Shown here piece by piece: positions 1,975 through 63,929 of a stretch of 64,000 nt of DNA. The translations under genes were made by a program, and so were the position numbers. Each line of letters begins with the position of its first letter. Positions within the stretch are counted from its first letter, which is position 1. The notes beneath the pieces are model-generated. The model had not been told where the DNA came from. It worked only from the letters and a program-made list of their open reading frames with translations, and made no database searches. The stretch comes from an uncultured Blastocatellia bacterium (lineage in GTDB: Bacteria; Acidobacteriota; Blastocatellia; Pyrinomonadales; Pyrinomonadaceae), in NCBI GenBank assembly GCA_946480785.1, contig CAMLLD010000004.1, positions 62,001-126,000 of the forward strand, given 5' to 3'.

Positions 1975-1998
1975 GAAACAACGGAAGGCGGTAAGTAA

Positions 1999-3001
<1,003 letters not shown>

Positions 3002-3015
<14 letters not shown>

Positions 3016-3961: not shown

Positions 3962-3964
3962 TTC

Positions 3965-7570: not shown

Positions 7571-7595
7571 GGCTTGCTCTGAGTCGGTATCGACA

Positions 7596-10094: not shown

Positions 10095-10124
10095 TCTCTT
10101 TGCTTCGGCATTCGATCCACTGAA

Positions 10125-13289: not shown

Positions 13290-14111
13290 ATGAAGCGAAG
13301 TTTCTTTTTGTTGCTTCACAAACTTCAGCTAACCAGGCTCGCGGCGTGGTGGAACCGCAAAGCCGTCGTAATCCTCTGTTATCACGGCGTTACTGAACGT
13401 CGCGAGCGTCACCCGGCGGATCGCCACGGTCTGCACATTCGGGCCGATCGTTTTGAAGCGCAACTGGATTATTTGTGCAGGCACTTTCAGGTGATCTCCT
13501 TGAGGGATTTTCTGAACGCACGAAGCAATAACGTCCCGCTGCCGGATCGCGCTGTCGTACTGACGTTCGATGACGGCTACCGAAACTTTCTCACGAGCGC
13601 GGCGCCGCGACTTGCCGCCCGCGGTCTTCCCGTTTCTCTTTTCTTGATTACCGACAAAATCGAGCCGGACGGCGGCTCAAAGCCAACCAATTGGTCCGAG
13701 GCTGACGACGAAACGTTCTTGTCGTGGCAAGAAGTGCAGGCGCTCCGCGAACAAGGCGTCGAACTCGGCTCGCACACTTGTTCACATCGAAAGTTAGCTG
13801 AGCTCGCAACAACAGATGCCGATCGCGAGCTGCGCGCGTCGTATGAAGCAATGGAGACGCATCTTTCACAGTCCGCGATACCGTTGGCTTTTCCTTATGG
13901 TTCCTATTCAGACGCCGTGATTGCGATGGCCCGCGAGCTTCCGTACACTTGCGCTCTGACCACCGATGCGGGTACGAATGGTCCTGCAACCGATTTATTC
14001 TTACTGCGGCGAAATCTGATCGGTGACGACGACGATGAAGCGGCATTCGTCGCGCGCGTGTCAGGTTTGACCGCTGCATTGCAACGCGTTGTGGCCCCAT
14101 TCCGTAACTGA
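13290..14111 (+). CDS. NodB-type polysaccharide deacetylase
   Basis: This 273-residue carbohydrate esterase family 4 protein probably removes an N-acetyl group from a glycan. The catalytic Asp and metal-binding Asp are in VVLTFDDGYRNF near residue 90, and the metal His pair is in ELGSHTCSHRKLAEL near 155. An ILCYHGVTERRERHP segment near 28 is the usual lead-in of membrane-associated deacetylases such as PgaB or IcaB. There is no clear signal peptide, so the site of action is uncertain. It abuts the methyltransferase gene, and its start directly follows that gene's stop. Confidence 0.9.
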   Translation: MKRSFFLLLHKLQLTRLAAWWNRKAVVILCYHGVTERRERHPADRHGLHIRADRFEAQLDYLCRHFQVISLRDFLNARSNNVPLPDRAVVLTFDDGYRNFLTSAAPRLAARGLPVSLFLITDKIEPDGGSKPTNWSEADDETFLSWQEVQALREQGVELGSHTCSHRKLAELATTDADRELRASYEAMETHLSQSAIPLAFPYGSYSDAVIAMARELPYTCALTTDAGTNGPATDLFLLRRNLIGDDDDEAAFVARVSGLTAALQRVVAPFRN

Positions 14112-14135
14112 ACATTTCTTTCGAGGGGGGAATTC

Positions 14136-15248
14136 ATGAAAAACATCCTGGTTACCGGAGGCGCGGGATTCATCGGCTCGCATCTCGTCGATGCGCTCGT
14201 CGAGCGCGGTCATCGCGTGAGAGTTCTCGATGCGGTCGTGGAACAGGTCCACGGTATGGACGGGCCGCAGTATGTCAATCCCGAAGCTGAATTCATCCAG
14301 GGTGACGTTTGCGATGCCGAGCTCGTGGATCGGGCGCTCGATGGCATCGATGTGGTTTACCACGAAGCGGCGGAAGTGGGTGTGGGCCAGTCAATGTACG
14401 AGATCGCACGTTACGTGCGCGCCAACGATCTCGGCACGGCCGTGCTGTTGGACCAGATCGTCAAGCGACGCCCGCAGATCGAGAAGTTGATGGTTGCGTC
14501 GTCGATGTCGATCTACGGCGAGGGTGCCTACGCCTGCGACGCTTGTGGGCCGGTGCAGCCGAAGCTGCGCGAGCTATCGCAACTGCTGGATCGTGACTGG
14601 GAACTGAGCTGTCCGCGCTGCGACGCCAAAGTTAAGCCGATGCCGACGAACGAAGACAAACCGCTCATTCCGTCGTCTATTTATGCGATCTCCAAACAGG
14701 ACCAGGAACAGTTTTGTCTCGTTGTCGGCCGCGCTTACAACATTCCCGTCGTCGCGCTGCGCTATTTCAACGTCTATGGTCCACGACAGGCACTTTCGAA
14801 TCCCTACACCGGTGTTTGTGCGATCTTCTCGGCGCGCTTGTTGAAAGATCAGGCGCCACTGGTTTTCGAAGATGGGGAACAGACGCGCGACTTCGTGCAC
14901 GTGAGCGACATCGTGCAGGCAAACCTGCTTGCGCTCGAGACAGACAAAGCCGATTACCAGACGTTGAATGTCGGCACCGGTTCGCCGATCTCGATCACGG
15001 AAATCTCAAACATGCTCGCGCACGGTCTGAACAAAAACATCGCGCCGGAAATCACCGGTAAGTATCGCGAGGGCGACATTCGTCATTGCGTCGCCGACAT
15101 CTCGCGCGCACGGACGCTGCTCGGCTACGAACCGAAAGTAAAACTGGCTGACGGCATTCCCGAGCTGCTCGAGTGGGTGCGCCAACAACAAGTCGGCGAC
15201 ACCTCAAGGGCCAACAGCGAACTCGAGCAACATCAATTAGTCCGGTAA
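14136..15248 (+). CDS. NAD-dependent sugar epimerase/dehydratase with zinc-ribbon insertion
   Basis: This is a 370-residue extended SDR, most like UDP-glucose 4-epimerase. It has ILVTGGAGFIGSHLVDALVE at the N terminus, SSMSIYGEGAY near residue 122 and catalytic Tyr-x3-Lys in SSIYAISKQDQ near 184. YFNVYGPRQ and DFVHVSDIVQANLLA follow as expected. The odd part is an insertion at about residues 130-170 with CDAC and CPRC pairs about 24 residues apart, which looks like a zinc ribbon placed between the active-site Ser and Tyr strands. The start has a strong GAGGGGGG ribosome site. The job is probably making a UDP- or GDP-sugar for the cluster. Confidence 0.92.
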   Translation: MKNILVTGGAGFIGSHLVDALVERGHRVRVLDAVVEQVHGMDGPQYVNPEAEFIQGDVCDAELVDRALDGIDVVYHEAAEVGVGQSMYEIARYVRANDLGTAVLLDQIVKRRPQIEKLMVASSMSIYGEGAYACDACGPVQPKLRELSQLLDRDWELSCPRCDAKVKPMPTNEDKPLIPSSIYAISKQDQEQFCLVVGRAYNIPVVALRYFNVYGPRQALSNPYTGVCAIFSARLLKDQAPLVFEDGEQTRDFVHVSDIVQANLLALETDKADYQTLNVGTGSPISITEISNMLAHGLNKNIAPEITGKYREGDIRHCVADISRARTLLGYEPKVKLADGIPELLEWVRQQQVGDTSRANSELEQHQLVR

Positions 15249-15259
15249 CAGCCCGAACT

Positions 15260-16669
15260 ATGCACTATCACCTGATCGGAATTTGCGGCACCGCGATGGC
15301 TTCACTCGCGGGCATGCTTCAGGCGCGCGGACATCGCGTCACCGGCTCGGACGTGAACGTCTATCCGCCGATGTCGACGATGCTCGCGGGCCTCGGCATC
15401 GATGTCTTGCAAGGATTCCGCGCGGAGAACCTCAATCCCGCGCCGGATTGTGTCATCGTCGGCAACGCAATTCCGCGCGGCAATCCGGAAGTCGAAGAAA
15501 CACTCAACCGCAAGCTTCTTTATCGTTCACAAGCGGAAATCGTTAAAGACGAATTCATCCGCGGACGTCGCTCACTCGCCGTCGCCGGCACGCACGGCAA
15601 GACGACGACGACCAGCATCGCCGCGTGGGTGATCGATCAGGGCGGACTCGATCCGACGTTTCTCATCGGCGGCGTCGCACAGAATTTCGGCGCCAGTTTT
15701 CGTGTTACTGACAGTGACTACTTCATCATCGAAGCCGACGAGTACGACACCGCATACTTCGACAAGGGTCCGAAGTTTATGCACTACCTGCCGGAGCTCG
15801 CGATCGTCAACAACATCGAGTTTGACCACGCTGACATCTATCGCGATCTCGACGCGGTGAAGCTCGCATTCAGGCGCTTCATGAATCTCGTGCCGGCGAA
15901 CGGGCGTTTGATCGCCGGTTGGGACAGTCCGCACGTTCGCGCCGTGGTCGAGTCGTTTGGGTCAAGACTCTTTACGACGCTCGAAACATTCGGCACGAGT
16001 GACGAGGCGAAGTGGCAGGTGCGCAATGCTGATTTCAGCGGGTCGCTATCGAAGTTTGAGGTGTTTCGCGAGGGTCGCTCGTGGGGAGAATTTCAGACGC
16101 CGCTTCTCGGAGAGTTCAACCTGCTGAATTGTCTCGCCGTGATCATCGCCGCCGACGCGTGGGGCGTGAGCCGCGAACAAATTGCAGACGCGCTCGCGAC
16201 TTTCAAAAACGTGAAGCGACGCGCGGAAGTGCGTGGCGAGCGCAAAGGCGTCGTCGTCATCGACGACTTTGCCCATCATCCGACCGCCGTCAGAGAAACC
16301 CTGCGCGCCTTGCGCTCACGCTACGGCGACCGCCGCCTGATCGCGATTTTCGAGCCGCGCTCGTGGTCTTCGCGCCTCGCCGTGTTCCAGGACGACTACG
16401 CAAACGCATTCGCCGCCGCCGACTACGTGGTGATTGCAAGCGTCTTCGACAGTCACAAGGTCACAGAAAAGGGACGGGCGCTTGATACCAACGAATTAAT
16501 CGCGGCGATTTCGCAACAACACAAGCCTGCCTTTGCGCTGCCCGATGCCGATCAGATCGTTTCACATATCCTTCCCGAGCTGCGCGCCGGAGACGTGGTG
16601 GCCATTATGTCCAACGGCGGTTTCGGCGGCATTCACGACAAGATCCTCACCGCCCTCGACGCGCAGTGA
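15260..16669 (+). CDS. mpl: UDP-MurNAc:L-alanyl-gamma-D-glutamyl-meso-diaminopimelate ligase
   Basis: Mpl joins recycled tripeptide directly to UDP-N-acetylmuramate in peptidoglycan recycling. The 469-residue protein starts MHYHLIGICGTAMASLAGML, an Mpl/MurC N terminus, and has the ATP-binding AVAGTHGKTTTTSI near residue 112, ADEYDTAYFDKGPKF near 160 and IDDFAHHPTAVRETL near 335. The frame is open from 15173, but the ATG at 15260 gives the family start. Length and the DEYDTAYFDKGPKF signature separate it from MurC. It follows the epimerase by 11 bases. Its presence suggests diaminopimelate-type peptidoglycan. Confidence 0.95.
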   Translation: MHYHLIGICGTAMASLAGMLQARGHRVTGSDVNVYPPMSTMLAGLGIDVLQGFRAENLNPAPDCVIVGNAIPRGNPEVEETLNRKLLYRSQAEIVKDEFIRGRRSLAVAGTHGKTTTTSIAAWVIDQGGLDPTFLIGGVAQNFGASFRVTDSDYFIIEADEYDTAYFDKGPKFMHYLPELAIVNNIEFDHADIYRDLDAVKLAFRRFMNLVPANGRLIAGWDSPHVRAVVESFGSRLFTTLETFGTSDEAKWQVRNADFSGSLSKFEVFREGRSWGEFQTPLLGEFNLLNCLAVIIAADAWGVSREQIADALATFKNVKRRAEVRGERKGVVVIDDFAHHPTAVRETLRALRSRYGDRRLIAIFEPRSWSSRLAVFQDDYANAFAAADYVVIASVFDSHKVTEKGRALDTNELIAAISQQHKPAFALPDADQIVSHILPELRAGDVVAIMSNGGFGGIHDKILTALDAQ

Positions 16670-42376: not shown

Positions 42377-44266
42377 TCAATCGGCGCGATAGATCTCGGC
42401 GCCTTCAATATCTCTGAAAATGTGGCGCAGCCCGCGTCGCTGGTGCGACAACGCGATGATGTACGTGTCACCGGGATACTTGATCGTCTTCGCTAACTGG
42501 CTCACCAACTTCTTGTCGCGCCCATCCAGTTGCAAACCAGACAACACTCGTTTCGAAGTCACGCCGAGAACATAGCTCGGTACGTCCGGCACATGTTGGC
42601 AGATCTTTCTCACGAGATACGCTGATCGCAGCAACGGCACGTTGGCGAGTTGCGCGCGCAGCGCCTCGAGCGCTTCGTTCGTCAATCCGTGCGGGACGAA
42701 GTCGTCCTTGATCGTGATGGTCCGGCGCTCCTGTTGGGCCAACTGGAGCTCGTAAAAATAATTTTCCGCACAGCGCCGATACTTCTCTGCTTCCGCGCCG
42801 CGTTCGCGCGCCATGAGAAACGAGTAGATCGCCTGACAACCCTCAGGCACCATCCCGACTTCTTTTTCCATCGCCAGTTCCAGGTGGCTGATACCGGCTT
42901 CATCGCCCTGCTGTAACAACGCGATTCCGAGTGCGTAGTTTGCGCACGCGTGATCCGGCATCAACTCCAGCACTTCACGCAGCAGCGGAGCGGCAGCGAT
43001 ATTGCCCTCTATGCCACCCACGTAGCTCGCGCGTTGCCAACGCTCGTCAACACTCAAGTCAGCCGCCGTCTTCTCCGCGAGCGTGGCCAATCCCTGCTGT
43101 GCCTCAGTGACAAACTTGTGCCGCTCAGTCCACGAGTTCGCGATCTCTTCTTCCCAGAATTTGTTCTGGCGTTCGATAAAGTCGGAGGGAACACGCGCGA
43201 ATAGCTCTCGATCGCCGAACAGTTCACCGCCTGTGATCGCGAACGCGTTCAAGTCAGCCGTCTCACGCACGTTCGTGTAGCCAATCGCGGCGAGACGATC
43301 CGCGAGCGCCGGATGAGTGTCGTCATAACGATGCCGTGCGGTCAGTGACTCAGCGAACCACGCCTGCGCCTTGTCGAGCGCCAGCGGCTGGCGCAACGTC
43401 TGCAGCAGCTCGGCGAAAGCATCGCGCGGCGGTTGTGGCTCGGTGTCTGCGCGGCGGTGGACCGCCGGCCAGAAGTCTTCGTTGAGCGCTCGTGATTTCA
43501 ATTCGAGATTGATCAAAACGCGCGCGGCGGTTTCTTTACCCGCAACCGCAACGGCCCAACGATCCGCTTCGTATTCCTGAGCGCGCGCGAGTACGAATGA
43601 GTAAGCCGAAAAATAAGGCGCGTACCAGTTGAAGAAACGTTGAAACACTTCCAGGCCGTAGCGCGGATGCTTTTTTACGTTTTCGAGTATCTGCGTCCAC
43701 GTTTGTCGCACGCGATAGATCCAGCTCGCGAACTGTCCGTGACGGCCCGATAGATGTCCGAACTCGTGCGCGAGCACGGCGCGAATCTCAGCCGGCGACA
43801 TCGACGCCAGCAACGGCAAGCCGACGCGCAGATAATTCTCGTGCCAGCCAAACACTCCGAGCGACGGCCGTTGCACGATGCTCGCGTTGTATTCGCGCGT
43901 CAACAAAATCTTCCGCAGCGTTGGACCACCGGTGGCGGCGCGCACTTCCTGCACCAACTCAAACAAACGCGGCGCGTCGTCGTAGTTCACTTCCTCGCCT
44001 TCCGGTTCGGGAAACTCGATCCACAAGGACTGCGCGATCAGAAAAGCCGCGCCAAGGAGCAGCACGAGCACCTGAATGATCAGGTAGTTGATCGCGCGCA
44101 GATAAATGAGGGTGAGAACGACGACCAGGATAAGGACTAACGCGCCGAACAGCGATAGATAACCAAGCGCCGCGAGCAGTCCGACGCGGAGCCGATAGGT
44201 GTCCGGGTGCTGGCGTTCGTAAACTTCCAGCTCCTCAACGAAGGCGACGAATTCTTTCTCCTCCAT
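42377..44266 (-). CDS. M48-family membrane zinc metalloprotease
   Basis: This 629-residue protein has two N-terminal membrane helices (about residues 32-55 and 63-85), then an M48 peptidase domain with the zinc motif VLAHEFGHLSGRH near residue 165 and the third ligand region AQEYEADRWAVAVAG near 228. Residues 300-560 contain helical repeats that look TPR-like (ACANYALGIALLQQGDEAGI). The C-terminal 70 residues are unrelated to typical HtpX. It is probably involved in membrane or envelope protein turnover. It is convergent with the DUF1326-like gene. Confidence 0.92.
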   Translation of the reverse strand: MEEKEFVAFVEELEVYERQHPDTYRLRVGLLAALGYLSLFGALVLILVVVLTLIYLRAINYLIIQVLVLLLGAAFLIAQSLWIEFPEPEGEEVNYDDAPRLFELVQEVRAATGGPTLRKILLTREYNASIVQRPSLGVFGWHENYLRVGLPLLASMSPAEIRAVLAHEFGHLSGRHGQFASWIYRVRQTWTQILENVKKHPRYGLEVFQRFFNWYAPYFSAYSFVLARAQEYEADRWAVAVAGKETAARVLINLELKSRALNEDFWPAVHRRADTEPQPPRDAFAELLQTLRQPLALDKAQAWFAESLTARHRYDDTHPALADRLAAIGYTNVRETADLNAFAITGGELFGDRELFARVPSDFIERQNKFWEEEIANSWTERHKFVTEAQQGLATLAEKTAADLSVDERWQRASYVGGIEGNIAAAPLLREVLELMPDHACANYALGIALLQQGDEAGISHLELAMEKEVGMVPEGCQAIYSFLMARERGAEAEKYRRCAENYFYELQLAQQERRTITIKDDFVPHGLTNEALEALRAQLANVPLLRSAYLVRKICQHVPDVPSYVLGVTSKRVLSGLQLDGRDKKLVSQLAKTIKYPGDTYIIALSHQRRGLRHIFRDIEGAEIYRAD

Positions 44267-53078: not shown

Positions 53079-54583
53079 TGGTTTTTAGAAAGGGCTCCAA
53101 CGGCCGCAGCCAACACGCTTTCCGGTGTCCACTCGTCGATCGATCTCACTTCCGACAATCTTCCGCGGCTCATCACTGCGAGTCGATCGCACATCCCAAA
53201 CAACTCCGGCAGATACGAGCTCACCATTAGCACCGCTTTGTTCTGCTCGGCGCAGGCGGCGATCGTTTCGTAAACCTGCGCTTTGCTACCGATGTCGATG
53301 CCGCGTGTCGGCTCGTCAAGCAGAAGCACGTCCGCGTCCTGATGCAACAGCCGCGCGAGTGCGACCTTTTGCTGGTTACCGCCGGACAACGAACCAACTG
53401 CTTGCTGCACGCCGCGTGTTTTGATCTTCAACGCGTTGACGAGTCGCTCGGCTTGTTTTCGTTGCGCACGTAAGTCGAGCCAGCCAAGACGCGAACAGGT
53501 GTCGAACTTGGTGACTGTTACGTTGTCCGCAAGCGATTGGTTCAGCGTCAAGCCGTCGCTTTTGCGATCCTCGCTAAGATAACCAAAGCCTTCGACGAGA
53601 CGCATCGCGGGCGTGCTGCTTCGCCCGCGCAAAGCGTTTTTGTTGACTGCGATCGTGCCGCTCGTGGGTGGTTCGAGACCGAAGATCGCGCGCAGCAGCG
53701 GCGTGCGGCCGGAGCCCATGAGACCGGCGATACCGAGGATCTCGCCGCGACGAAGTTCGAAGCTCGCGTCTTTCAGCAGCGGCGGCGACGCGAGATTTCG
53801 GACGTCGAGAATCGTTTCGTGGATCGCGTTTTTGTTTTTGCGTTCGGGGAAAAGGTTTTGTTGCGCGCGACCGACCATCTTCGCGATCAGTTCGTCGTCG
53901 CTTGTCGTGGCGATGTCGCCGGTCGCGACGCTGCGTCCGTCACGCAAGACGGTGAAGCGATCCGCGATCTGGCGCACTTCTTCGAGGAAGTGGCTGATGT
54001 AGATCACGGAGATGCCTTCCGAGCTGAGGCGGCGGATGAGTTGAAAGAGGTTAGCGACGTCGTCGCGTTGCAGACTGCTGGTTGGCTCGTCCATCAGGAT
54101 GATGCGCGCGCGTGCTGCAAGCGCCCGCGAAATTTCTACAATTTGTCGCGCGGCGACCGGCAGATCGCCGACGCGTTTTTCCGGACGGATATCGGCGTGA
54201 TGAAACGTGCGCAGCACTTCGTTTGTGCGCGCGATCAGTTGCTCGCGATCGAGCCAGCCGAAGTGCGACGACTCGATGCCCATCAGCACGTTTTCGGCGA
54301 CGGAGAGATGCGGGCAGAGGGAGAGTTCCTGGTGAATGAGCGCGATGCCGTTGGTGCGTGCGTCGAGTGGGCTCGTTGGTGAATAAGGATGGCCGTCGAG
54401 TTCAATGCGGCCGGCGTCGGGTTTTAGTGAGCCGGCGATCACGTTCATCAGCGTGCTCTTGCCCGCGCCGTTCTCGCCGATCAGCGCGTGCACTTCGCCC
54501 GGACGCAGTTCGAGATCGACACCGTCGAGCGCGATAGTTGGACCAAACGCCTTACGAATTCCTTTAAGCGAAAGCGCCGTCAT
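53075..54583 (-). CDS. Sugar ABC transporter ATPase (RbsA-type, orphan)
   Basis: This 502-residue protein has two ABC domains. The first has Walker A GENGAGKSTLMNVIAG near residue 37, signature region VAARQIVEISRALA and Walker B IILMDEPTSSLQ. The second has the degenerate Walker A GLMGSGRTPLLRAIFG typical of RbsA, the signature SLSGGNQQKVALARLL near 400 and LLLDEPTRGIDIG. No permease or binding protein adjoins it; the RbsC/RbsB-type pair at 30875-32866 in the same window lacks an ATPase. It overlaps the mannosidase and DUF4440 genes by 4 bases each. Confidence 0.94.
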   Translation of the reverse strand: MTALSLKGIRKAFGPTIALDGVDLELRPGEVHALIGENGAGKSTLMNVIAGSLKPDAGRIELDGHPYSPTSPLDARTNGIALIHQELSLCPHLSVAENVLMGIESSHFGWLDREQLIARTNEVLRTFHHADIRPEKRVGDLPVAARQIVEISRALAARARIILMDEPTSSLQRDDVANLFQLIRRLSSEGISVIYISHFLEEVRQIADRFTVLRDGRSVATGDIATTSDDELIAKMVGRAQQNLFPERKNKNAIHETILDVRNLASPPLLKDASFELRRGEILGIAGLMGSGRTPLLRAIFGLEPPTSGTIAVNKNALRGRSSTPAMRLVEGFGYLSEDRKSDGLTLNQSLADNVTVTKFDTCSRLGWLDLRAQRKQAERLVNALKIKTRGVQQAVGSLSGGNQQKVALARLLHQDADVLLLDEPTRGIDIGSKAQVYETIAACAEQNKAVLMVSSYLPELFGMCDRLAVMSRGRLSEVRSIDEWTPESVLAAAVGALSKNQ

Positions 54584-57500
54584 AAGCCGTAGAGTAGTTG
54601 TGCGGGTTTCACCGTGTCACGTTCGTTCGAACCGGTGATAGCCAGGATGCGGATCTGATCGTTGTTCGGCAGCGTCAACGTCGTTGCGTTTACGGGTACG
54701 TCGATGGTGTAAGCAAAGAGGTACGAGTAAGCGTAAGCCTCGTTCGTGCCGGCCACCGTGTGATGGTGCGACGCGAACCACGCCAGTGGCGCGCGCTTGA
54801 TGAAGCCGGGCGTGATGCCAGTCATCTCGCCGTAAGGATCGATGCGCGTGCGCGGTCGTTGCATCTGCGCAGCGATGTCCGGCGGCGTGTCGGGCGGCGG
54901 CGTGCGCGGCGGAATTTTTACTTCCACCTCTTTCCATTGCCGGTCGTACCACTGGCCGATGAAGCCGCCCCAGTTTTGAATCGTTAGTTCGTTCGACTCG
55001 TTGCCGATGCGAAACGTCGCCTTCTCGTCACCACTGACAGCAGCCGCAAGCACGTACAAACGGCGCGTTCCGGCGGGCAGTTGAATCGTTTGCCCATGCG
55101 GGACCAGGACGTTCACTTTTCCACTCGCAAGCTGAAACCTGATACCACCGTACGCCAGCTCACTCGGCAGCATCTCTGCCGGCAGCGTATTCCCTTCACC
55201 GTCAAATCCCGCCTTCAATCTCTCCCCGTCATTCGACGCGCCCGCGAGATCGTAAGGGAGGTTAATGGGGTTCGATTGCGGCACGCGCGAATTAAGAGCG
55301 GATTGCGACGCTAGCTTCAGGGCGAAGGTCCGTGGTTGATATCGCGTAAGGCTCGTGACGAGCTGACCTTTAACGATCTTCGGCGCGGGATCTCGCTTCG
55401 CGTCAGCAAGCGGTAGCTCCTGCGCGTTCACTTCGCGCGCCGCGATCACCGGTGCTGGAAATACGACGCGCACATCCGGCACGCCGCGCCCATCGAGCTC
55501 AACCATCCGCACGATCAACTCGTCCGAATCTTCCGCTTTCTTCAAGGCAAGCACGCGCACGCGATCCGTGTTCAAGCGCAGGATCGAAAATGTTTTTCCT
55601 AAACGTCCGGTGTGCTTCGAACTTTCAAACGCGATCAGCGACTGATTCAAACGCTGCGCCTGCCAATCGGTTCGCTCACGACGCCAGTCACCCTCGTGCG
55701 CGGCTAATCCATAATCAAATCGATGCCGGCCCCAGTCCTGTGTCGCCTGATCGGCGTAACCTGCGCGTGGACTAATGCCCGGCGTACGCAGCAACGTCAA
55801 GCGCAACGTCTTATCATCCGGTTTATCTGAGCCGTACTTACAATCGGAAAGAATCGTCACGCCAAACGCGCCGCTGCGATCCGTGAGATCGAACCACTGA
55901 TGCGACGGCACCTCAAACTTCCGTTCGTCGTTATTGCCGCGTTCGATCGTGCCGATGTCCCAGTTGTACGTCGCCTTCGCATTCGCGGCGGTGAGCGGAA
56001 ACGTGGCTTTCAAATTTGCATTGCTCGTCTTCCAGTCGATGACGTTACTAAACTCGACGCGATTGCCGGCATCGCCTGCCGACAAGCGCACGATCTGTAG
56101 ATACCTCGATCCTTCAGTTTCACGCCTGACCTCGATCGCCACACGCGCCGGGCCGTCTTCCACCACGTGCATCTCCGCCGGGCCACTCACGTATGCGCGC
56201 GGCGCTTTCTGTTGATCGGACCAGTCCATGTTCCACGCGGGCCACTGCGTCGGCGTGTCGTTCTTGAGCGCGAGCCGCAGCGGCGCCTCGAGCAATTCGC
56301 GCTTCAGTTTCTTGTCGAAAATACTCGCGACGTCGCCATCGCGATTCAACTGCAAGCGATAACGCTGGTTTTCCAGCGACGAATCCGTCGCCTTCAGTTC
56401 CGATGGCTTCCGCAAGACACTTGGAGGTCCGAGCTTCACGTCGTAAACCGCGTAACCCACCGACGGCACGTGGGCCAGAAATAACAACTTCGTCGCATTG
56501 CCTTCATTACCAGCCACCTGCGCCGGAACCTCGCGGCCGTCAGGCCCGGTGACATGGACCACGTAAATTGAGCCAAGCGGCAACGACACCGTCGCCTCAA
56601 CCACATCTTCACGCTCGATATTCAGCGGGTTGTAAACAACGATCGCCGCGCCGCGCGTCTGCGTGTTCAGCTCCGACGCGATTCCTTCCGTCGCACTCGT
56701 CAATACACCCGCAAACTGGTTCATCGCGATCACGTCGTCATTCCACGAAAACTCAAACGCTTTCGGCGTCGCCGTGCCCGGCAGGATGTCGTGAAACTGT
56801 CCGCCCATCACGAGCGTCCACGCATTGTTCAACCGTTGCTGCGGATACACACGACTGCCCAGCCACGCAGCGCCGACCGACGCCTTCTCCGCCGCATCAG
56901 CAAGCAGTTCGTTCTTGCGGTTCCAACGCTTTTGATAAGCCTCTGACGTGATCGAGCCCGCCGAATGATCCGTCAACAACAGATCGCCTTCGTAACGCGG
57001 CAAGCCTTTGATCTGCTCGGGACGAATGTTCAAAAACATCTGTTCGGAAGTTGACGACACGACTTTCAATGGACCATCGTTCTTCGCCAGGATCGATTCC
57101 AACATGCGCACGGAGTCTTCACGCGGCGAGCCGCCGGTGTCGCCGGTGCCGTAGTACTGATAGTCGGTGAACAGTCCACTCACGCGCCCGTTGCGTTGCA
57201 CGCGTGCGGGCCAGTCGACCGGATTGTTGCGCGCATTCGGATCCGTGATGACGGGACTGCGACTGATGTCCTCTCTGATCTGGCCGCCGTAACTGCCGGG
57301 ATTGAACGCCGCGATCACGCCGCGCCCGTCAGGCCCTTGCCACCAACCGACATTGAACGGAATCCCACGCGGCGTTTCTTCGATCGAGCCGGGGCCGCCG
57401 CCGGGCGCCGCCGAGTTCCACGTGAGTTTCTGCGTTGAGAATCCTTTGATCCCTGCGTGGGCCAGGATGCTCGGCAGCGAAGCGGGAAAACCGAAACAGT

Positions 57501-57942
57501 CGGGCAGCATGTACTCCGCGCTCGTCTTCCCAAACTCGCGCTGAAAAAATTTGTTGCCGTAAAGGATCTGGCGAAAGATCGACTCGGCCGACGCCGAGTT
57601 CACGTCGCTCTCCTCCATCGACGAGCCCGCCGGAAACCAGCGCCCGGCAGCGACGTACTGCTTCACGCGCGCGTAATCGCCCGGCCAGTATTCCTTCATC
57701 ATGCGATAGCGATTCGCGCCGCTGAAGTTGAAGATGTAATGCGGATACTTCTCGAAGAGCGCGAAGTTGTCGTGCATCGTCTTCGGGATGTAATCGTTGA
57801 TGACGCGCGGATATTCCCAACGCCACTGCGTGTCGAGATGCGCGTAGCCGACGACGTAGAGCGTCGGATCTTTGCTGAGATCTGTTTGGGCCTGCATCGG
57901 GCTGACGAAGAGCGCGATTAGAAGGAGAGTTAGGCAGCGCAT
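54580..57942 (-). CDS. GH38-family alpha-mannosidase, secreted
   Basis: This 1120-residue protein has a signal peptide (MRCLTLLLIALFVSPMQAQ). The GH38 catalytic domain starts with VVGYAHLDTQWRWEYPRV near residue 32, which supplies the zinc His and Asp. AEYMLPDCFGFPASLPS near 158 contains the likely nucleophile Asp. The middle and C-terminal beta domains (about residues 420-1120) complete the fold. It removes alpha-mannose residues from glycans outside the cytoplasm. It heads the leftward operon with a sugar ATPase and galactose genes. A TATAAT lies only 8 bases before its ATG, so the mRNA may be nearly leaderless. Confidence 0.92.
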   Translation of the reverse strand: MRCLTLLLIALFVSPMQAQTDLSKDPTLYVVGYAHLDTQWRWEYPRVINDYIPKTMHDNFALFEKYPHYIFNFSGANRYRMMKEYWPGDYARVKQYVAAGRWFPAGSSMEESDVNSASAESIFRQILYGNKFFQREFGKTSAEYMLPDCFGFPASLPSILAHAGIKGFSTQKLTWNSAAPGGGPGSIEETPRGIPFNVGWWQGPDGRGVIAAFNPGSYGGQIREDISRSPVITDPNARNNPVDWPARVQRNGRVSGLFTDYQYYGTGDTGGSPREDSVRMLESILAKNDGPLKVVSSTSEQMFLNIRPEQIKGLPRYEGDLLLTDHSAGSITSEAYQKRWNRKNELLADAAEKASVGAAWLGSRVYPQQRLNNAWTLVMGGQFHDILPGTATPKAFEFSWNDDVIAMNQFAGVLTSATEGIASELNTQTRGAAIVVYNPLNIEREDVVEATVSLPLGSIYVVHVTGPDGREVPAQVAGNEGNATKLLFLAHVPSVGYAVYDVKLGPPSVLRKPSELKATDSSLENQRYRLQLNRDGDVASIFDKKLKRELLEAPLRLALKNDTPTQWPAWNMDWSDQQKAPRAYVSGPAEMHVVEDGPARVAIEVRRETEGSRYLQIVRLSAGDAGNRVEFSNVIDWKTSNANLKATFPLTAANAKATYNWDIGTIERGNNDERKFEVPSHQWFDLTDRSGAFGVTILSDCKYGSDKPDDKTLRLTLLRTPGISPRAGYADQATQDWGRHRFDYGLAAHEGDWRRERTDWQAQRLNQSLIAFESSKHTGRLGKTFSILRLNTDRVRVLALKKAEDSDELIVRMVELDGRGVPDVRVVFPAPVIAAREVNAQELPLADAKRDPAPKIVKGQLVTSLTRYQPRTFALKLASQSALNSRVPQSNPINLPYDLAGASNDGERLKAGFDGEGNTLPAEMLPSELAYGGIRFQLASGKVNVLVPHGQTIQLPAGTRRLYVLAAAVSGDEKATFRIGNESNELTIQNWGGFIGQWYDRQWKEVEVKIPPRTPPPDTPPDIAAQMQRPRTRIDPYGEMTGITPGFIKRAPLAWFASHHHTVAGTNEAYAYSYLFAYTIDVPVNATTLTLPNNDQIRILAITGSNERDTVKPAQLLYGL

Positions 57943-58005: not shown

Positions 58006-58287
58006 ATGCAAATTTCTTTTTCGGATCGCGTGCAGGTGCCGGAAGGCGTGCTGATCTCGAATGTTCAGGATGAGTCGGTGATTCTTAATCTCGACAGCGA
58101 GCGCTACTTCGGCCTGGACAACGTCGGCACGCGAATTCTGACCGTCCTTACTAACTCTGATTCGATCCAAAGTGCGTATGAGTCGCTGCTCGCGGAGTAT
58201 GAAGTTGACCACGCGACGCTGCGGGCGGATCTGGTGGCGCTGATCGAAAGTCTCCTGCAACAAGGGCTCGTGCAAGTCTCCGCATGA
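58006..58287 (+). CDS. PqqD-like RiPP recognition element (lasso B1-type)
   Basis: This 93-residue protein is a stand-alone PqqD/RRE fold, which binds the leader peptide of a ribosomal peptide precursor. DRVQVPEGVLISNVQDESVI, then LNLDSERYFGLDNVGTRIL near residue 28, is the usual winged-helix core of lasso B1 proteins. It overlaps the cyclase gene by 4 bases (ATGA). It should deliver the precursor at 59851 to the processing enzymes. The usual B2 transglutaminase-like protease partner is not encoded nearby. Confidence 0.88.
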   Translation: MQISFSDRVQVPEGVLISNVQDESVILNLDSERYFGLDNVGTRILTVLTNSDSIQSAYESLLAEYEVDHATLRADLVALIESLLQQGLVQVSA

Positions 58288-59834
58288 GCGGAATCGTTGG
58301 CATCGTTAATCTCGATGGCGCGCCGATCGATCGCGATCCGTTGGTCCGGATGGCGAAGTTCATGTCGTTCCGGGGGCCGGATGGTGGAGAGATCTGGACT
58401 GAAAGCAACGTGGGTTTCGGCAACACGCTGTTGCGAAACGATGACTTCTGTATTACGGCAGACGCGCGGATTGACGGCTGTGAGAACAGGGATTTAACGG
58501 ATGTAGAACGGATCCTTTTCGCTTACGAGAAGTGGGGTGAGGATTGTGTCGAGCATCTGATCGGTGATTTTGCTTTTGTGATCTGGGACAAGCGATCGCG
58601 ACGGCTTTTCTGCGCGCGCGATCATTTCGGCGTGAAGCCGTTCTTTTACGCACGCGCCGGCAACACGTTCATCTTCAGCAACACCCTCAACGCGCTGCGA
58701 CTTGATTCGCGTGTGTCGGATGAACTGAACGAAGCTGCAGTCCGCGATTATCTCGAGTCGGGATTGAATCAGGATCTGAGCACAACGATCTTTCGCGACA
58801 TTCAGCGGCTGCCGGGCGGACACTCGCTCACGCTCGCAAACGGAGCGATTGCTACACGCTGCTACTGGAAACCGGCCGTTAAGAACAGGATTCGCTTTCG
58901 TAAGTCGCGAGAGTACGTCGAGCGTTTCGACGAACTGTTATTAACTGCCGTTAAAGATCGGCTGCGCACCGATCGCATTTCGATTTCGATGAGCGGCGGT
59001 CTCGATTCCACCAGTCTCGCCGCGATCGCGCGCGAACTTTTGCCGCAGCCCGCTGCAGTTAAGGCTTTCTCGACCGTTTACGACAAGTTGATTCCCGACG
59101 AGGAACGCCACTACTCCACGCTCGCGGCCTCGCATCTTCGCGTCCCGATTCAGCACTTGAACGCCGACAACCATTCGTTGTTTGAAGAACGCGCGCCACG
59201 TGATCTAGACGTGCCGGAGCCGTTTCTGCTCGGGCCGCTCGCGGGACAATTCAATGATCTGCTGCGACTGATGGCGGGTCACGCCCGCGTGGCGTTGACG
59301 GGTTACGACGGCGACGCGTTGATGAACGAGTCGCGTCGAGCGTACGTGAAGTCTCTTATAACTCGAAATTATGCCAACAGCAGACTCGCCACGATCAACT
59401 CGCTAAACTCGAAAGTGTGGGCGCCGTTATTCGAAGGTTACGATCCGGGCTCGACGCGCCTACAACTCGAAGTGCGCCATCCGTTCATCGACGTACGTCT
59501 CATTGATTACCTGCTCTCGATTCCCGCTGTTCCGTGGTGCAGCAAGAAACGGATCCTGCGCGACGCAATGAAAGATCGACTGCCACGCGCCGTACTGCAG
59601 CGTCCGAAGACACCTCTCACCAGCGATCCTGCACTTCAACTCGCGCGCCGCGCTGGTGTAAGATGGCTCGACCATTTTGAGGTCACGCCGCAATTAACGC
59701 GTTTTGTTAATCTGAATTCTCGACGATCGCAGGCGGAAGAAACTCCCAACGCGCTCTGGGCCAACTTGCGAGTGTTTGCGCTCAACCATTGGCTCGCACA
59801 TTCTCTGCCGCTCGATCGACGAATGGTCGCCTAA
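58284..59834 (+). CDS. Asparagine-synthetase-like macrolactam cyclase (lasso C-type)
   Basis: This 516-residue protein has an N-terminal glutaminase-like domain (MSGIVGIVNLDG), but the catalytic Cys2 is replaced by Ser, so it cannot use glutamine as AsnB does; this is normal for lasso cyclases. The C-terminal ATP-pyrophosphatase domain has ISMSGGLDSTSLAAIARELL near residue 233. It probably adenylates the side-chain carboxylate of the core Asp and forms the ring amide. RHPFIDVRLIDYLLSIP near 400 is the expected AsnB-family motif. It is the second gene of the cluster and precedes the precursor by 16 bases. Confidence 0.92.
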   Translation: MSGIVGIVNLDGAPIDRDPLVRMAKFMSFRGPDGGEIWTESNVGFGNTLLRNDDFCITADARIDGCENRDLTDVERILFAYEKWGEDCVEHLIGDFAFVIWDKRSRRLFCARDHFGVKPFFYARAGNTFIFSNTLNALRLDSRVSDELNEAAVRDYLESGLNQDLSTTIFRDIQRLPGGHSLTLANGAIATRCYWKPAVKNRIRFRKSREYVERFDELLLTAVKDRLRTDRISISMSGGLDSTSLAAIARELLPQPAAVKAFSTVYDKLIPDEERHYSTLAASHLRVPIQHLNADNHSLFEERAPRDLDVPEPFLLGPLAGQFNDLLRLMAGHARVALTGYDGDALMNESRRAYVKSLITRNYANSRLATINSLNSKVWAPLFEGYDPGSTRLQLEVRHPFIDVRLIDYLLSIPAVPWCSKKRILRDAMKDRLPRAVLQRPKTPLTSDPALQLARRAGVRWLDHFEVTPQLTRFVNLNSRRSQAEETPNALWANLRVFALNHWLAHSLPLDRRMVA

Positions 59835-59850
59835 TCAACTGGAGCAAAGC

Positions 59851-60027
59851 ATGGCACGGACACCAGAACCCGCTCAGCCACTTAATTCCGACCAGCCGAA
59901 GAAGCCTTACCACAAACCGGAAGTGATCGTTTACGGAAACATTCGCGAGATCACGCGCAACGTCGGCCCGAAGGGTAATCTCGACGGCGGCGGCGGCGCG
60001 GCCGCAGGACCAAAGACCGGAGCATGA
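59851..60027 (+). CDS. Lasso-type RiPP precursor peptide
   Basis: This 58-residue peptide starts at the ATG at 59851; the upstream frame overlaps the cyclase gene. The leader contains the conserved PY(20)xxP(23) motif, Gly29 and Thr35, the usual penultimate leader residue. Cleavage after Arg36 would leave a 22-residue core starting Asn37, with Asp45 at core position 9, matching a 9-residue macrolactam. Cleavage one residue later would place Asp at position 8. The tail after Asp45 is Gly/Ala-rich, with Pro, Lys and Thr only, and has no aromatic plug. There is no C-terminal Ser. Confidence 0.85.
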   Translation: MARTPEPAQPLNSDQPKKPYHKPEVIVYGNIREITRNVGPKGNLDGGGGAAAGPKTGA

Positions 60028-60037
60028 TCGGCAGCAA

Positions 60038-61030
60038 ATGCATTACGGTTGCTCGATCTATGGTCTGGACGTTTTAGCCAACAGACCGATTCCCACCGTT
60101 CCTCATTCGCCGATCGCAACCGCGGACGTTCGCGTCTCTTTTGGCGTGCTGCCTGAGTGGCTCAACTCACTCGCACCCGAGCAGGTCGAGACCGTTTACG
60201 TCGCCGACTACGCGGACGAGCACGGCAATCCGGCGTTCGTGTTTGCCAGACTGCACGACGGTGATTTCTATCGCTTCACTTATGCCGACAAAACGGAATT
60301 TGTAGTCGATCGCGCCGGACGTGAGATCTGGACCACCTGGCTTGAGCCGCTGACGCTGGAAGATACGGCGACTTACCTGCTCGGGCCAGTGATGGGGTTC
60401 GTGTTGTTGTTGCGCGGGCTCGTGTGTTTGCACGCGAGCGCGATCGTCGTCAATGGCGTTGCGGTGGCGTTGGTTGGACCAGCAGGCGCGGGGAAGTCGA
60501 CGACCGCTGCCGCGTTTGCCGCGCGCGGATTTAGTGTTTTGGCTGAAGACGTCGTGACACTAGACGATCGCGGAGACGACGATCGCGGCGAGACTTTTCT
60601 TGTGCGGCCCGCGTATCCCTGCATTCGTTTGTGGCCCGCTTCCGTCGCCGCGCTCTACGGTTCGCGATCCGCGTTGCCGCCGTTGACGCCGAACTGGGAC
60701 AAGCTCTATCTCGATCTGACGCAGCGGTCCGGGCAGTTTGAAAACGAGCCGCGACGACTGGCCGCGATCTACTTGCTCGACGAGCGCAGCGACGATCCGC
60801 AAGCGCCGTTTGTTCACGCGCTCGATCCGGCCGCAGGCATGATGTCGCTGGTGGCGAACACGTACGGCACGAAGTTACTCGACAAGCACATGCGGGCGCG
60901 CGAGTTTGCGCTGTTGAGCCGAGTGTCGCAGCACGTGCCGCTGCGTCGTGTGACGCCGCACGCCGATTCGGCCGCGCTTCCGAAACTTTGCGATCTCCTC
61001 CTCGCTGACTTCGAAAACATTCATGTATAG
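60038..61030 (+). CDS. HPr-kinase-like protein of the RiPP cluster
   Basis: This 330-residue protein has an HprK C-terminal-type kinase domain. The P-loop is ALVGPAGAGKSTTAAAFAAR near residue 145, preceded by CLHASAIVVNGVAV, and VLAEDVVTLDD near 175 is the Walker B-like region. Homologues in lasso clusters phosphorylate the C-terminal Ser of the precursor, as in paeninodin. This precursor ends in Ala and has only Thr in its tail, so the target may be Thr or the activity may be different. It begins 10 bases after the precursor and overlaps the methyltransferase gene by 8 bases. Confidence 0.88.
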   Translation: MHYGCSIYGLDVLANRPIPTVPHSPIATADVRVSFGVLPEWLNSLAPEQVETVYVADYADEHGNPAFVFARLHDGDFYRFTYADKTEFVVDRAGREIWTTWLEPLTLEDTATYLLGPVMGFVLLLRGLVCLHASAIVVNGVAVALVGPAGAGKSTTAAAFAARGFSVLAEDVVTLDDRGDDDRGETFLVRPAYPCIRLWPASVAALYGSRSALPPLTPNWDKLYLDLTQRSGQFENEPRRLAAIYLLDERSDDPQAPFVHALDPAAGMMSLVANTYGTKLLDKHMRAREFALLSRVSQHVPLRRVTPHADSAALPKLCDLLLADFENIHV

Positions 61031-61976
61031 CCTCCACTTTTACGGCGAGATGATGGGCGGCACTGCGCGAATCGAACCTTACGTCGAAGCGCTGCGCCGC
61101 GTAGTCACGCCTGATTCAGTGGTGATGGATCTTGGCTGTGGTCCTGGCCTGCTTGCGCTGCTCGCGTGTAAGTTCGGCGCTCGTCGCGTCTATGCGGTCG
61201 AGCCGGACAACGTAATCAACATCGCGCGTGAGGCGGCCGCGGCAAATGGTTTCGCCGACCGTATCGAATTTTTTCAAAGTTTTTCGCACGAAGTCACGCT
61301 GCCGGAGCCTGCGACGATAATCGTTTCTGACCTGCGCGGCGTGTTGCCGTGGTTCCAAAAACACATTCCGTCGATCGTTGACGCACGGCAGCGACTGCTT
61401 GCGCCGGGTGGTGTGTTGATTCCGCGGCGCGACACATTGTGGGCAGCGCTCGTTGAAACGCCCGAGCAGTATGAAAAGATCGTGGGGCCGTGGCGGAATC
61501 GGCTGTTCGACGTGGATCTTTCGGCGGGGCTTGCGCGAATCACAAACTCCTGGCGCAAGACACGAATCGAAGCCGGTGAGTTGTTGATGGAGCCGGTGCG
61601 TTGGACCACGTTGGACTATTACACCGTTGCCAGTAGTGATGTGCACGCGGAGATTTCGTGGCGTGCCGCTCGGCAAGGAGTCGCACACGGAGTTGTAGTC
61701 TGGTTCGACACTGAACTCGAAGATGGCATTGGGTTCTCGAATCGCCCCGGTGCGCCCGAGTTGATTTACGGCAACGCGTTTTTTCCGTTTCCACGTCCGG
61801 TTGAAGTCAAGGAAGGGGAGCGCGTCGCAATGAAGCTTCGCGCTGATCTCGTGCAGGACGATTACGTGTGGAGTTGGACCACGGATTTCACCAATCAAAA
61901 GATCGGATTTAAGCAGTCGACGTTTTATAGCGCACCGCTTTCGGTTGAACGTTTGCGAAAAAGTCATGCTCAATAA
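61023..61976 (+). CDS. PRMT-like SAM-dependent methyltransferase of the RiPP cluster
   Basis: This 317-residue protein starts MYSLHFYGEMMGG and has motif I VVMDLGCGPGLLALLACKFG near residue 33 and AVEPDNVINIAREAAAANGF as the acidic loop. The overall layout is of protein arginine methyltransferases (methyltransferase domain plus C-terminal beta barrel). The PRMT double-Glu loop is replaced here by VSDLRGVLPWFQ near 100, so the target may not be arginine. It sits between the HPr-kinase homologue and NTP_transf_5 gene, so a RiPP-tailoring role is inferred. Confidence 0.85.
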   Translation: MYSLHFYGEMMGGTARIEPYVEALRRVVTPDSVVMDLGCGPGLLALLACKFGARRVYAVEPDNVINIAREAAAANGFADRIEFFQSFSHEVTLPEPATIIVSDLRGVLPWFQKHIPSIVDARQRLLAPGGVLIPRRDTLWAALVETPEQYEKIVGPWRNRLFDVDLSAGLARITNSWRKTRIEAGELLMEPVRWTTLDYYTVASSDVHAEISWRAARQGVAHGVVVWFDTELEDGIGFSNRPGAPELIYGNAFFPFPRPVEVKEGERVAMKLRADLVQDDYVWSWTTDFTNQKIGFKQSTFYSAPLSVERLRKSHAQ

Positions 61977-63153
61977 ACGTCAGGAGCACGAGATACTGCT
62001 TTGCGTGGCGCGGCGCGAACTTGGCGTCGAGCGAGCGAGACTTCGGCAGTTGCTGAGTGAGGTTCGCGACTGGGAGTATTTAATGGCCGCCGCGAGTTAT
62101 CATGGGTTGGCGCCGCTGCTTCACAAGCACGTGCATGAAAGCTGTGCTGATCTCGTTCCGGTTAACGCGCTCTCGCGGTTGAAGCAGTCTTCGCTCGCGA
62201 ACACGCAAAACGTGTTGCACCTGGCGGGTAAGCAGTTGAAGATCGTGCGGCTGATGCGCGAGGGCGGTGTGCCGGTCGCGGTCTTCAAAGGGTCCGTGCT
62301 TTCGCAGATGGCTTACGGCGAGATCTCGTTGCGACAGGCGGGTGACATCGATCTGCTGATCCATCGCCAGCATTTTGCTCGAGCAAGAGTGTTGCTCGAA
62401 TCTCTGCGTTACGAGATGACGCCGCAGCTAACCGCGACGCAGTTGGAATCGCATCTGAGGCATCACTGCGAGATACAATTCGTGCGTGACGATTGGTTCA
62501 CCGTCGTCGATCTGCATTGGGGGCTCGCGCCGAAGAGTTTTGTGTTCAACCTCGAAACAGATGAAGTGATGTCGCGCTTGCAAACTGTCGCGGTGGCCGG
62601 CGCGGAGATCCAAACGCTCGCGACAGAAGATTTGATCCTGTATCTCTCGATGCACGGCGCGAAACATCTCTGGCGCGCGCTCGAATGGATCAGTTCGCTC
62701 GGCGAGTTGATTCGCGCGACCGACGCAATCGACTGGGACGTGGTTGTGGAACGCGCCGTGCAATCGCACGCGACACGCATGTTGGGCCTCGCGTTGCGAC
62801 TGGTCGAGCGAGTGTCGAGAGTAGAAATTCCTTCGCACCTGCTACGAACGATTGATAAAGACGAGTCGATGAACAGAATGGCGGAGCAAGTAATCGCGCA
62901 GACGTTCGTCGCGTCCGGCGTTGCCGATTCCACGGAGACGAATCTCTACAACCTCAAGATCATGGACCGCAAACGCGATGCGCTCCGCTCTGCTCTGCGC
63001 GCGATCTTCATCCCGACCTTCACCGACTGGGACGCGCTAAATCTGCCCCCTTCCCTGCACTCGCTTTATTACGCCTATCGTCCGTTGCGTCTCTCGAAGG
63101 TCTACACGACCTCGCTCTGCCGCAAGCTGCTTAGATCGCGAGGCGCCGCATGA
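61966..63153 (+). CDS. NTP_transf_5-like nucleotidyltransferase-family protein
   Basis: The protein is 395 residues from the ATG at 61966 (the frame is open from 61945). The core has VPVAVFKGSVLSQMAYGE near residue 103 and ISLRQAGDIDLLIHRQHFAR near 122, where the Gly-Asp-x-Asp motif is the metal-binding pair of the nucleotidyltransferase fold. PF14907-type proteins of this length occur with lasso-like and other RiPP clusters, but the reaction is unknown. It overlaps the methyltransferase gene by 11 bases and the DNA methylase by 4 bases. Confidence 0.85.
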   Translation: MLNKRQEHEILLCVARRELGVERARLRQLLSEVRDWEYLMAAASYHGLAPLLHKHVHESCADLVPVNALSRLKQSSLANTQNVLHLAGKQLKIVRLMREGGVPVAVFKGSVLSQMAYGEISLRQAGDIDLLIHRQHFARARVLLESLRYEMTPQLTATQLESHLRHHCEIQFVRDDWFTVVDLHWGLAPKSFVFNLETDEVMSRLQTVAVAGAEIQTLATEDLILYLSMHGAKHLWRALEWISSLGELIRATDAIDWDVVVERAVQSHATRMLGLALRLVERVSRVEIPSHLLRTIDKDESMNRMAEQVIAQTFVASGVADSTETNLYNLKIMDRKRDALRSALRAIFIPTFTDWDALNLPPSLHSLYYAYRPLRLSKVYTTSLCRKLLRSRGAA

Positions 63154-63929
63154 CTACGACATTGAAGCCGCCGTTGAAATGGGCGGGCGGCAAACGTTGG
63201 CTCGTACCGCACCTCGCGCCGCTTTGGCAGCGGTATTCCGATCGCCGTTACGTCGAACCGTTTTGCGGCGGGCTCGCAGTCGTGCTCGGGTTGCAACCGG
63301 CGCGAGCGTTGCTCAACGACATCAATCCGCACCTCGTCAACTTTTATCGCCATCTGCAAAAGGGCGTGCAGCCGCGGATCGAGATGCGCAACGACGAAGA
63401 GCTCTTCTATCGCCATCGCGATCGGTTCAACGCGTTGATTCAAAACGGCGGTGCGAAGAGTCGCGAGGCGGCGGAGTTGTTTTATTATCTGAATCGCACG
63501 TGCTTCAACGGGCTTTGCCGGTTCAACAAGAGCGGCGAGTTTAATGTGCCGTTCGGGACGTACGCGACGATCAACTATGCAACCGACTTCAGCGGCTACG
63601 CGCCGGTGTTCAAGGATTGGGAGTTCAGCAGTGTGGACGTCGCGAAGGTCGGAATACAAGCAGGAGATTTCGTTTACGCCGATCCGCCATACGACACCGA
63701 GTTCACGACGTACAGTCCGGGTGGATTTTCGTTTGCAGATCAAGAACGCACGGCGGAGTTGCTGGCGAAGCATTCGGGGCCGGTCGTAATCTCGAACCAG
63801 GCGACACCGCGGATTGTCGAGCTTTATGAGGGCTTGGGTTTCGAGTTGAGTTATCTTGCTGGACCGCGGCGGATCAGTTGTACTGGAGATCGCACCGCAG
63901 CGCGCGAGGTGTTGGCGATTAAGCAATGA
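63150..63929 (+). CDS. Dam-type DNA adenine methyltransferase (D12 class)
   Basis: This 259-residue enzyme has LKPPLKWAGGKRWLVPHLAP at the N terminus, the FxGxG-equivalent PFCGGLAVVLGLQPA near residue 36 and DPPYDTEFTTYSPGGF near 180, the catalytic DPPY motif. YLNRTCFNGLCRFNKSGEFN near 112 is the usual D12 target-recognition region. It probably methylates adenine in GATC, though the target is not certain. No restriction endonuclease is adjacent in the window, so it looks orphan. It is coupled to the upstream gene by an ATGA overlap and to the next gene by another. Confidence 0.93.
   Translation: MTTTLKPPLKWAGGKRWLVPHLAPLWQRYSDRRYVEPFCGGLAVVLGLQPARALLNDINPHLVNFYRHLQKGVQPRIEMRNDEELFYRHRDRFNALIQNGGAKSREAAELFYYLNRTCFNGLCRFNKSGEFNVPFGTYATINYATDFSGYAPVFKDWEFSSVDVAKVGIQAGDFVYADPPYDTEFTTYSPGGFSFADQERTAELLAKHSGPVVISNQATPRIVELYEGLGFELSYLAGPRRISCTGDRTAAREVLAIKQ

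Follow-up and report, generated by a model that had tools for sequence, protein, structure and literature searches.

A lasso-type gene cluster without a recognisable B2 leader peptidase in an uncultured Blastocatellia bacterium

In lasso peptide biosynthesis, cleavage of the leader by the B2 peptidase is regarded as the source of the amine used by the cyclase C. Pseudomycoidin is reportedly, to go by the title of a paper, produced without leader and leader peptidase. Kinases of the type discussed below phosphorylate the C-terminal Ser in paeninodin, and PsmN of the pseudomycoidin system acts after the kinase (PMC9266682). Other ribosomally synthesized and post-translationally modified peptides (RiPPs) rely on proteases from outside their cluster (PMC10885120), and Asn as the first ring residue has an experimental precedent in metanodin (PMC12670498). 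The window analyzed here is the whole stretch of 64,000 nucleotides of contig CAMLLD010000004.1 (positions 62,001 to 126,000, assembly GCA_946480785.1) from an uncultured Blastocatellia bacterium. It harbors, at 58006-63153, six co-directional genes in the order B1-C-A-K-M-N, A encoding the precursor, with all frames open (Table 1). This cluster has the constituents of lasso biosynthesis except B2, and the B2 gap is a feature of a group of related loci, not a local accident.

No match to PF13471, the B2 family, was found at E<=0.1 in any of the six cluster proteins. A B2 profile built on the genes of eight relatives (one iteration) detected none among the 921 window reading frames of at least 40 amino acids (best E 0.16, filters off), in agreement with an earlier note on this DNA that saw no B2 in the six proteins. 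The end of B1 and the start of C overlap by 4 bases, leaving B2 no room. Among 30 further window proteins (E<=1e-5; from 59 reading frames listed), the only peptidase match is an M48 protein (42380-44266). The same note had described a RiPP recognition element (RRE), an asparagine-synthetase cyclase with Cys2 changed to Ser, a precursor with a YxxP leader and Thr at -2, and flanks of a mannosidase and a DNA methylase. All of these are borne out: B1 matches PF05402, C starts with Met-Ser, lacks Cys2 and matches PF00733 and PF13537, both leader marks are read in A, and the flanks belong to the GH38 and Dam types by PF01074 and PF02086. Of the features that define lasso clusters, the locus shows the YxxP motif, Thr-2 and an Asp at core position 9 in the precursor, the RRE, and an AsnB-like C with the synthetase residues; a PF13471 B2 in the cluster and a bulky plug residue in the tail are missing. 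The HprK-like kinase near the precursor marks the kinase-tailored (paeninodin-like) subgroup. An ATP-grasp ligase, the mark of graspetides, has no match at E<=0.1 among the six proteins. The NCBIfam lasso models on B1, C and the precursor all score under their curated cut-offs (54.6/80 bits for lasso_PqqD_Bac, the best model for B1; 23.2/33 for NF033528 on the precursor; further 326/525 and 17.7/19; NF033535 matches C at E 5e-97, under its cut-off), and the cluster is therefore a divergent member.

For comparison, 366 cyclase relatives were collected from one genome per species, and the best 80 of them, corresponding to 78 loci, were kept. The nearest named protein relatives belong to Pyrinomonadaceae (Acidobacteriota). 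B2 lies within 5 kb of C in 62 of the 78 loci, and in 44 the gene order is clearly B1-B2-C. In the window and three Blastocatellia relatives, by contrast, B1 adjoins C; over L001, L005, L013 and L096 (the contig of L002), the two genes are adjoining or a few tens of bases apart. In the cyclase tree, the window, L001, L002 and L005 are grouped with support 100, and L031, whose locus starts inside C, is next (support 97). These five rows, the pair L013-L015 (support 99) and the B2-bearing L019 form an eight-row set, whose support of 94 is below the tool's star and within which the branching is not resolved. Because the tree groups these rows, a single loss of B2 in a common ancestor of the group is suggested by the cyclase sequences. 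Over the whole tree, 14 of 73 rows carry the label B2-less, which requires nine changes, seven of them forced by starred branches; these counts overstate the losses, since the label includes loci truncated by contig ends or on short contigs. L002 is cut within C, and L031 and L063 start at or just before C. The tree omits L021, L035, L043, L044, L059 and L070. In L023, from the cyanobacterium ESFC-1, several near-identical direct repeats (recognized by eye) fill the B1-C gap at the B2 site (L023:9140-9960). A partial literature search recognized no B2-less acidobacterial lasso cluster.

The window precursor carries Y20xxP23, Y28G29 and T35 (Thr-2) in its leader, followed by the core with Asn1 and Asp9; the predicted core boundary is set by Thr-2. 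The precursor has 682 database relatives at E<=1, and 176 distinct precursors (the best 120 of the 682 plus 56 from a later search) were compared. T-2, N1, G3, D9, G17, P18, K19 and T20 are invariant in all 176 listed precursors. From Tyr20 onward their leader, too, is mostly near-invariant, and core position 5 (K5) is Arg in 7 of the 176. Position -1 is Arg in 169 cases, Lys in four, and Ser, Gln or Met in one each. Arg-1 was considered as a new cleavage determinant; these exceptions weaken that idea, and a conserved Arg is unexceptional because the leader around it hardly varies. In P0296, the leader is strongly diverged and -1 is Met, yet T-2, N1 and D9 are kept and the core is nearly unchanged; module exchange or fast leader evolution may account for this. 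We infer from similarity that all listed precursors belong to B2-less clusters, the DNA context having been seen together with the precursor only for the window, L001 and L005. At L024:9638-11983, a cyclase and a lasso-like precursor share one open reading frame (ORF), with no stop between them.

The window C retains the synthetase motif SGGLDS. Over 27 chosen rows (21 B2-bearing, six not), it keeps 82 of the 96 columns that are near-invariant in the 21 B2-bearing cyclases, including SGGxDS, D344, R440 and K442. Of the remaining 14 columns, seven carry substitutions and the other seven are deleted; three of these deletions (P, W, R) fall, by position, in a 66-residue segment that the cyclase of L019 has and the window C lacks. 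The cyclases of L005, L013 and L015 have 615-636 residues, and the precursors of L013, L015 and L031 still carry bulky tail residues. These retained features suggest an order of change in which B2 may have been lost first, then the plug, with shortening of the cyclase last. The C frame of L001 follows B1 without the MSGIVGIV residues that open the glutaminase domain at its N-terminus. A structure model of C was poor (mean predicted local distance difference test, pLDDT, 69.4; below 50 from residue 443 on), and no inference was drawn from it.

The accessory proteins K, M and N look like tailoring enzymes and not like substitute proteases, a reading that follows from their co-occurrence with B2 in relatives: homologues stand beside B2 in 59 (K), 21 (M) and 39 (N) of 62 B2-bearing loci, and all three do so in 14. 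K retains H132, G147, G152-K153-S154 and D171, invariant over 29 aligned rows, and its AlphaFold2 model (pLDDT 95.5) gave Foldseek matches to PEPCK (1.2e-8) and HprK/P (2e-6). Its predicted fold is that of a PEPCK/HprK-type kinase; fold prediction of this product had been put forward earlier as a way to reveal a protease, and none emerged. M matches the PrmA and PRMT_C families. In alignment A3, about 80 extra C-terminal residues of M occur in 14 of 16 relatives and are missing in the window, in L001 and in the B2-bearing L028; the B2-less L013 and L015 have them, so the shortening of M is independent of B2. A piece of the extra stretch from L004 (L004:13915-14202) has a weak PqqD match (E 0.0047, under the cut-off), and one from L007 has no match. 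The N sequence found no match among PDB sequences.

The cluster shows signs, in its substitution patterns, of being maintained under selection. Between the window and L001, nonsynonymous and synonymous divergence (dN/dS) amounts to 0.15/1.64 (~0.09) for A, 0.30/1.14 (~0.26) for B1, 0.32/2.68 (~0.12) for C and 0.30/2.02 (~0.15) for N, K and M being saturated. Against L005, the values are 0.32/0.92 (0.35) for A, 0.25/2.11 (0.12) for B1, 0.32/1.44 (0.22) for C and 0.32/1.54 (0.21) for K. Only saturated comparisons exist for M, and the other five genes are well under 1. The flanks of L001 are those of the window (GH38 upstream, 73% identical; Dam downstream, 72% identical), L096 has the window's upstream leu, gal and ABC-transporter region, and L005 has the ABC ATPase. 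Because of these shared neighbors, the locus looks to have been inherited in place within the group. This recurrence in other genomes, together with the 682 precursor relatives, makes the cluster more than a chance array of genes. No protease gene is common to the flanks of the window and L001, L096 or L005 among the recognized matches (GH38, Dam, leu/gal-type, ABC ATPase).

The explanation that we favor, and rate at about an even chance, is a working RiPP pathway that descends from a lasso pathway of the kinase/nucleotidyltransferase type (paeninodin/pseudomycoidin-like), with B2 lost from the operon, a peptidase acting in trans, and ring closure between Asn1 and Asp9. B1 would bind the YxxP leader; K would phosphorylate the conserved Thr20 in the K-T tail, N would alter the phosphate, and M would methylate. 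A peptidase encoded outside the cluster (a displaced B2 or another protease) would cut between -1 and Asn1, upon which C would activate Asp9 and then close the nine-residue Asn1-Asp9 macrolactam. We infer every chemical step, and indeed that cleavage occurs at all. The constancy of T-2 and N1 across the listed precursors is what favors cleavage in trans. The earlier note had left leader removal to either a protease in trans or an accessory protein working in a new way, and the first is the likelier, as a displaced B2 occurs in the family. In ESFC-1, the sole PF13471 match lies at 1.676 Mb of a 5.43-Mb scaffold (5.6-Mb assembly), ~3.7 Mb from the B2-less family cluster L023, and the 19 kb surrounding this match yielded neither B1 nor C. 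The genome of L015 (G177) has one PF13471 match, and its B1-B2 pair is on a contig other than that of L015, a locus at which no B1 was found. G002 and G004 have two PF13471 matches each outside the cluster: one copy adjoins another AsnB-like gene, and the other is an orphan (L093:4863-5417, L094:2791-3303) beside DUF1015, SerA-, SDR- and SerC-like genes (the last two named by eye). Of 162 genomes in this class, 29 match the orphan at E<=1e-5 and 26 do so below 1e-20; nine of these 26 have one stop inside the matched stretch.

Several observations weigh against cleavage in trans followed by ordinary ring closure. In G001 (L001) and G179 (L031), nothing matches PF13471 at E<=0.001, and G176 (L013) has one match of 21.6 bits, under the cut-off; going by these three assemblies, B2 in trans may not be universal among the relatives. 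G018 and G180, which carry the loci L038 and L043 outside the group, are likewise without a PF13471 match. Of the 26 genomes with a strong orphan match, two also match the cyclase at E<=1e-100 and the other 24 do not, and G001 keeps the DUF1015-SerA-SDR-SerC order with the orphan missing. The orphan at the serA locus was thus unsupported as a dedicated partner, being mostly without a close cyclase and missing at the G001 site. Judged genome by genome, a missing B2 is weak evidence because G001 and G176 look incomplete by marker counts. PF00587 counts are 2 in each, vs 3 each in G002, G004 and G177 (G179 2), and PF00133 is matched below 1e-100 once in each, vs twice each in G002, G004 and G177 (G179 two). 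These counts suggest a lower completeness for the G001 and G176 assemblies than for those of G002, G004 and G177. The tail is a further difficulty: in the stretch from the acid to the K/R-T motif, none of 119 parsed precursors (of the best 120, one stayed unparsed) has a bulky residue (F W Y M L I H R Q), whereas B2-bearing loci whose precursors share this tail motif have at least one in 24 of 28; two of the later 56 have one (P0254 Leu, P0287 Gln). The precursors of relatives, in this comparison and in that of position -1 below, were collected by a leader pattern requiring Thr, which misses odd leaders and may count one or two stray matches. Going by these sequences, the plug-less tail argues against an ordinary stable lasso.

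The core might instead be released by a housekeeping protease outside the B2 family, perhaps aided by the basic -1 residue, which we regard as rather unlikely. Arg or Lys at -1 in 173 of 176 listed precursors, as against 18 of the 73 rows for precursors from B2-bearing loci, would fit this, as would the three assemblies without a PF13471 match over the cut-off and the out-of-cluster proteases of other RiPPs (PMC10885120); the single exceptions Ser, Gln and Met, the Gln at -1 of the B2-less L013, and a T-2 that never varies do not. Doubtful, too, is a reading in which leader removal was abandoned and C, working on the leader-bearing precursor, joins Asp9 to the Lys19 side chain, yielding a graspetide-like macrolactam with a decorated Thr20. 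The lineage would then have left lasso biosynthesis stepwise (B2, plugs, C segment) with the core and the synthetase site still selected, a course that we hold equally doubtful. A tail without plugs and a K19 that is never Arg keep this bond a candidate: all 176 listed precursors have Lys at position 19, although seven have Arg in place of K5, and the position corresponding to K19 in precursors of B2-bearing loci shows 20 Lys to 8 Arg. A small-residue spacer separates D9 and K19, and a single account would cover three absences together, those of B2, of the plug (0/119 vs 24/28) and of the C segment. However, the invariance of T-2 and N1 (176/176) would be left without reason, the K-T motif, for which a kinase site is the simpler account, is common to the B2-bearing relatives, and the precursors are so closely related that invariance is weak evidence. 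We know of no lasso cyclase that performs such chemistry.

A decaying cluster that makes no product is highly improbable. B2 is gone, C and M are shortened and the L001 C lacks its N-terminal glutaminase start, but the frames are open, dN/dS stays below 0.4 in every computable window comparison, core positions are invariant over 176 precursors, and the gene neighborhood is repeated in several genomes. That K, M or N has turned into the leader protease, as the earlier note had offered, is the least credible of all: the cluster holds no other proteins that could do so, but their homologues adjoin B2 in relatives, and neither the family matches nor the predicted fold of K show a protease. Trans cleavage of a lasso-type precursor thus stays the preferred reading.

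Table 1. Cluster genes, predicted core and flanking genes; positions are those of the window.
Feature	Position	Strand	Description
B1	58006..58287	+	PqqD-type RRE, 93 amino acids; PF05402 E 3.8e-14, over cut-off
C	58284..59834	+	AsnB-like lasso cyclase, 516 amino acids; PF00733 E 1.1e-25, also PF13537
A (precursor)	59851..60027	+	58 amino acids; leader 59851-59958
Predicted core	59959..60024	+	22 residues; N1..D9 ring candidate, small-residue tail, K19-T20 motif
K	60038..61030	+	HPr-kinase-like putative precursor kinase, 330 amino acids; PF07475 E 8.3e-6, below cut-off
M	61023..61976	+	class I methyltransferase, PRMT-type C-terminal domain, 317 amino acids; PF22528 E 2.6e-11, PF06325 E 4.4e-11
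N	61966..63153	+	NTP_transf_5 nucleotidyltransferase-family protein; PF14907 E 2.6e-53
Dam-type adenine-N6 DNA methylase	63150..63929	+	downstream flank; PF02086 E 2.1e-42
GH38 alpha-mannosidase	54580..57942	-	divergent upstream flank; PF01074 E 1.6e-42

The start of N was taken as ATG 61966; the ORF list has TTG 61945. At the other end of the window (859-16666), the scanned proteins are glycosyltransferases, a carbamoyltransferase, an epimerase and a Mur-ligase-type protein, a gene run that probably serves surface polysaccharide synthesis. In G002, a second HprK-like gene (L093:10547-11218, E 1.1e-4) lies beside a radical-SAM-like protein (by eye); this region is possibly another RiPP locus.

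Judging from the sequences, the B2 gap is wider than a single locus, and either something else must cut or the product must differ. With at least 176 distinct precursors, a retained C and an operon without B2, these clusters let one ask if other peptidases serve lasso-type cyclases or, alternatively, if such cyclases form other bonds. Mining tools that demand B2, or curated cut-offs for B1, C or the precursor, could overlook them.

Among described systems, the paeninodin/pseudomycoidin type shares B1, an AsnB-like C and the YxxP leader with the window cluster. Both also have an HprK-like kinase, a protein of the nucleotidyltransferase family and, at the C-terminus or close to it, a hydroxy residue (PMC9266682). 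The window cluster differs by the lack of B2, an extra PRMT-like protein, a shortened C, a plug-less tail and Asn1. The bsf cluster of Bradymonas sediminis likewise combines B1, C, a kinase (BsfK), a nucleotidyltransferase (BsfN) and a lasso precursor, yet carries B2 and an ABC transporter and has Ile in position -2, whereas the window has Thr-2 and neither gene among the six (PMC10368454). In the LPP family, too, a lasso-type RRE and a kinase go together with a leader peptidase that is not B2; LPP clusters have no macrolactam cyclase and encode a SpI-like peptidase, whereas the window cluster keeps C and has no peptidase (PMC13381572). Metanodin shares Asn as ring residue 1 and Thr-2, but its cluster is gammaproteobacterial, with its own B gene in a classical ABC organization (PMC12670498). 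The acidobacterial lasso clusters 40.1, 482.1 and 44.1 resemble the window in B1 and an Asn-synthase C and, unlike it, carry a PF13471 B2 in all three (PMC9064862). The B2-bearing relatives (e.g. L004, L017, L019) have the same B1-C-A-K-M-N genes and differ in a B2 between B1 and C, a longer C and mostly bulky tails.

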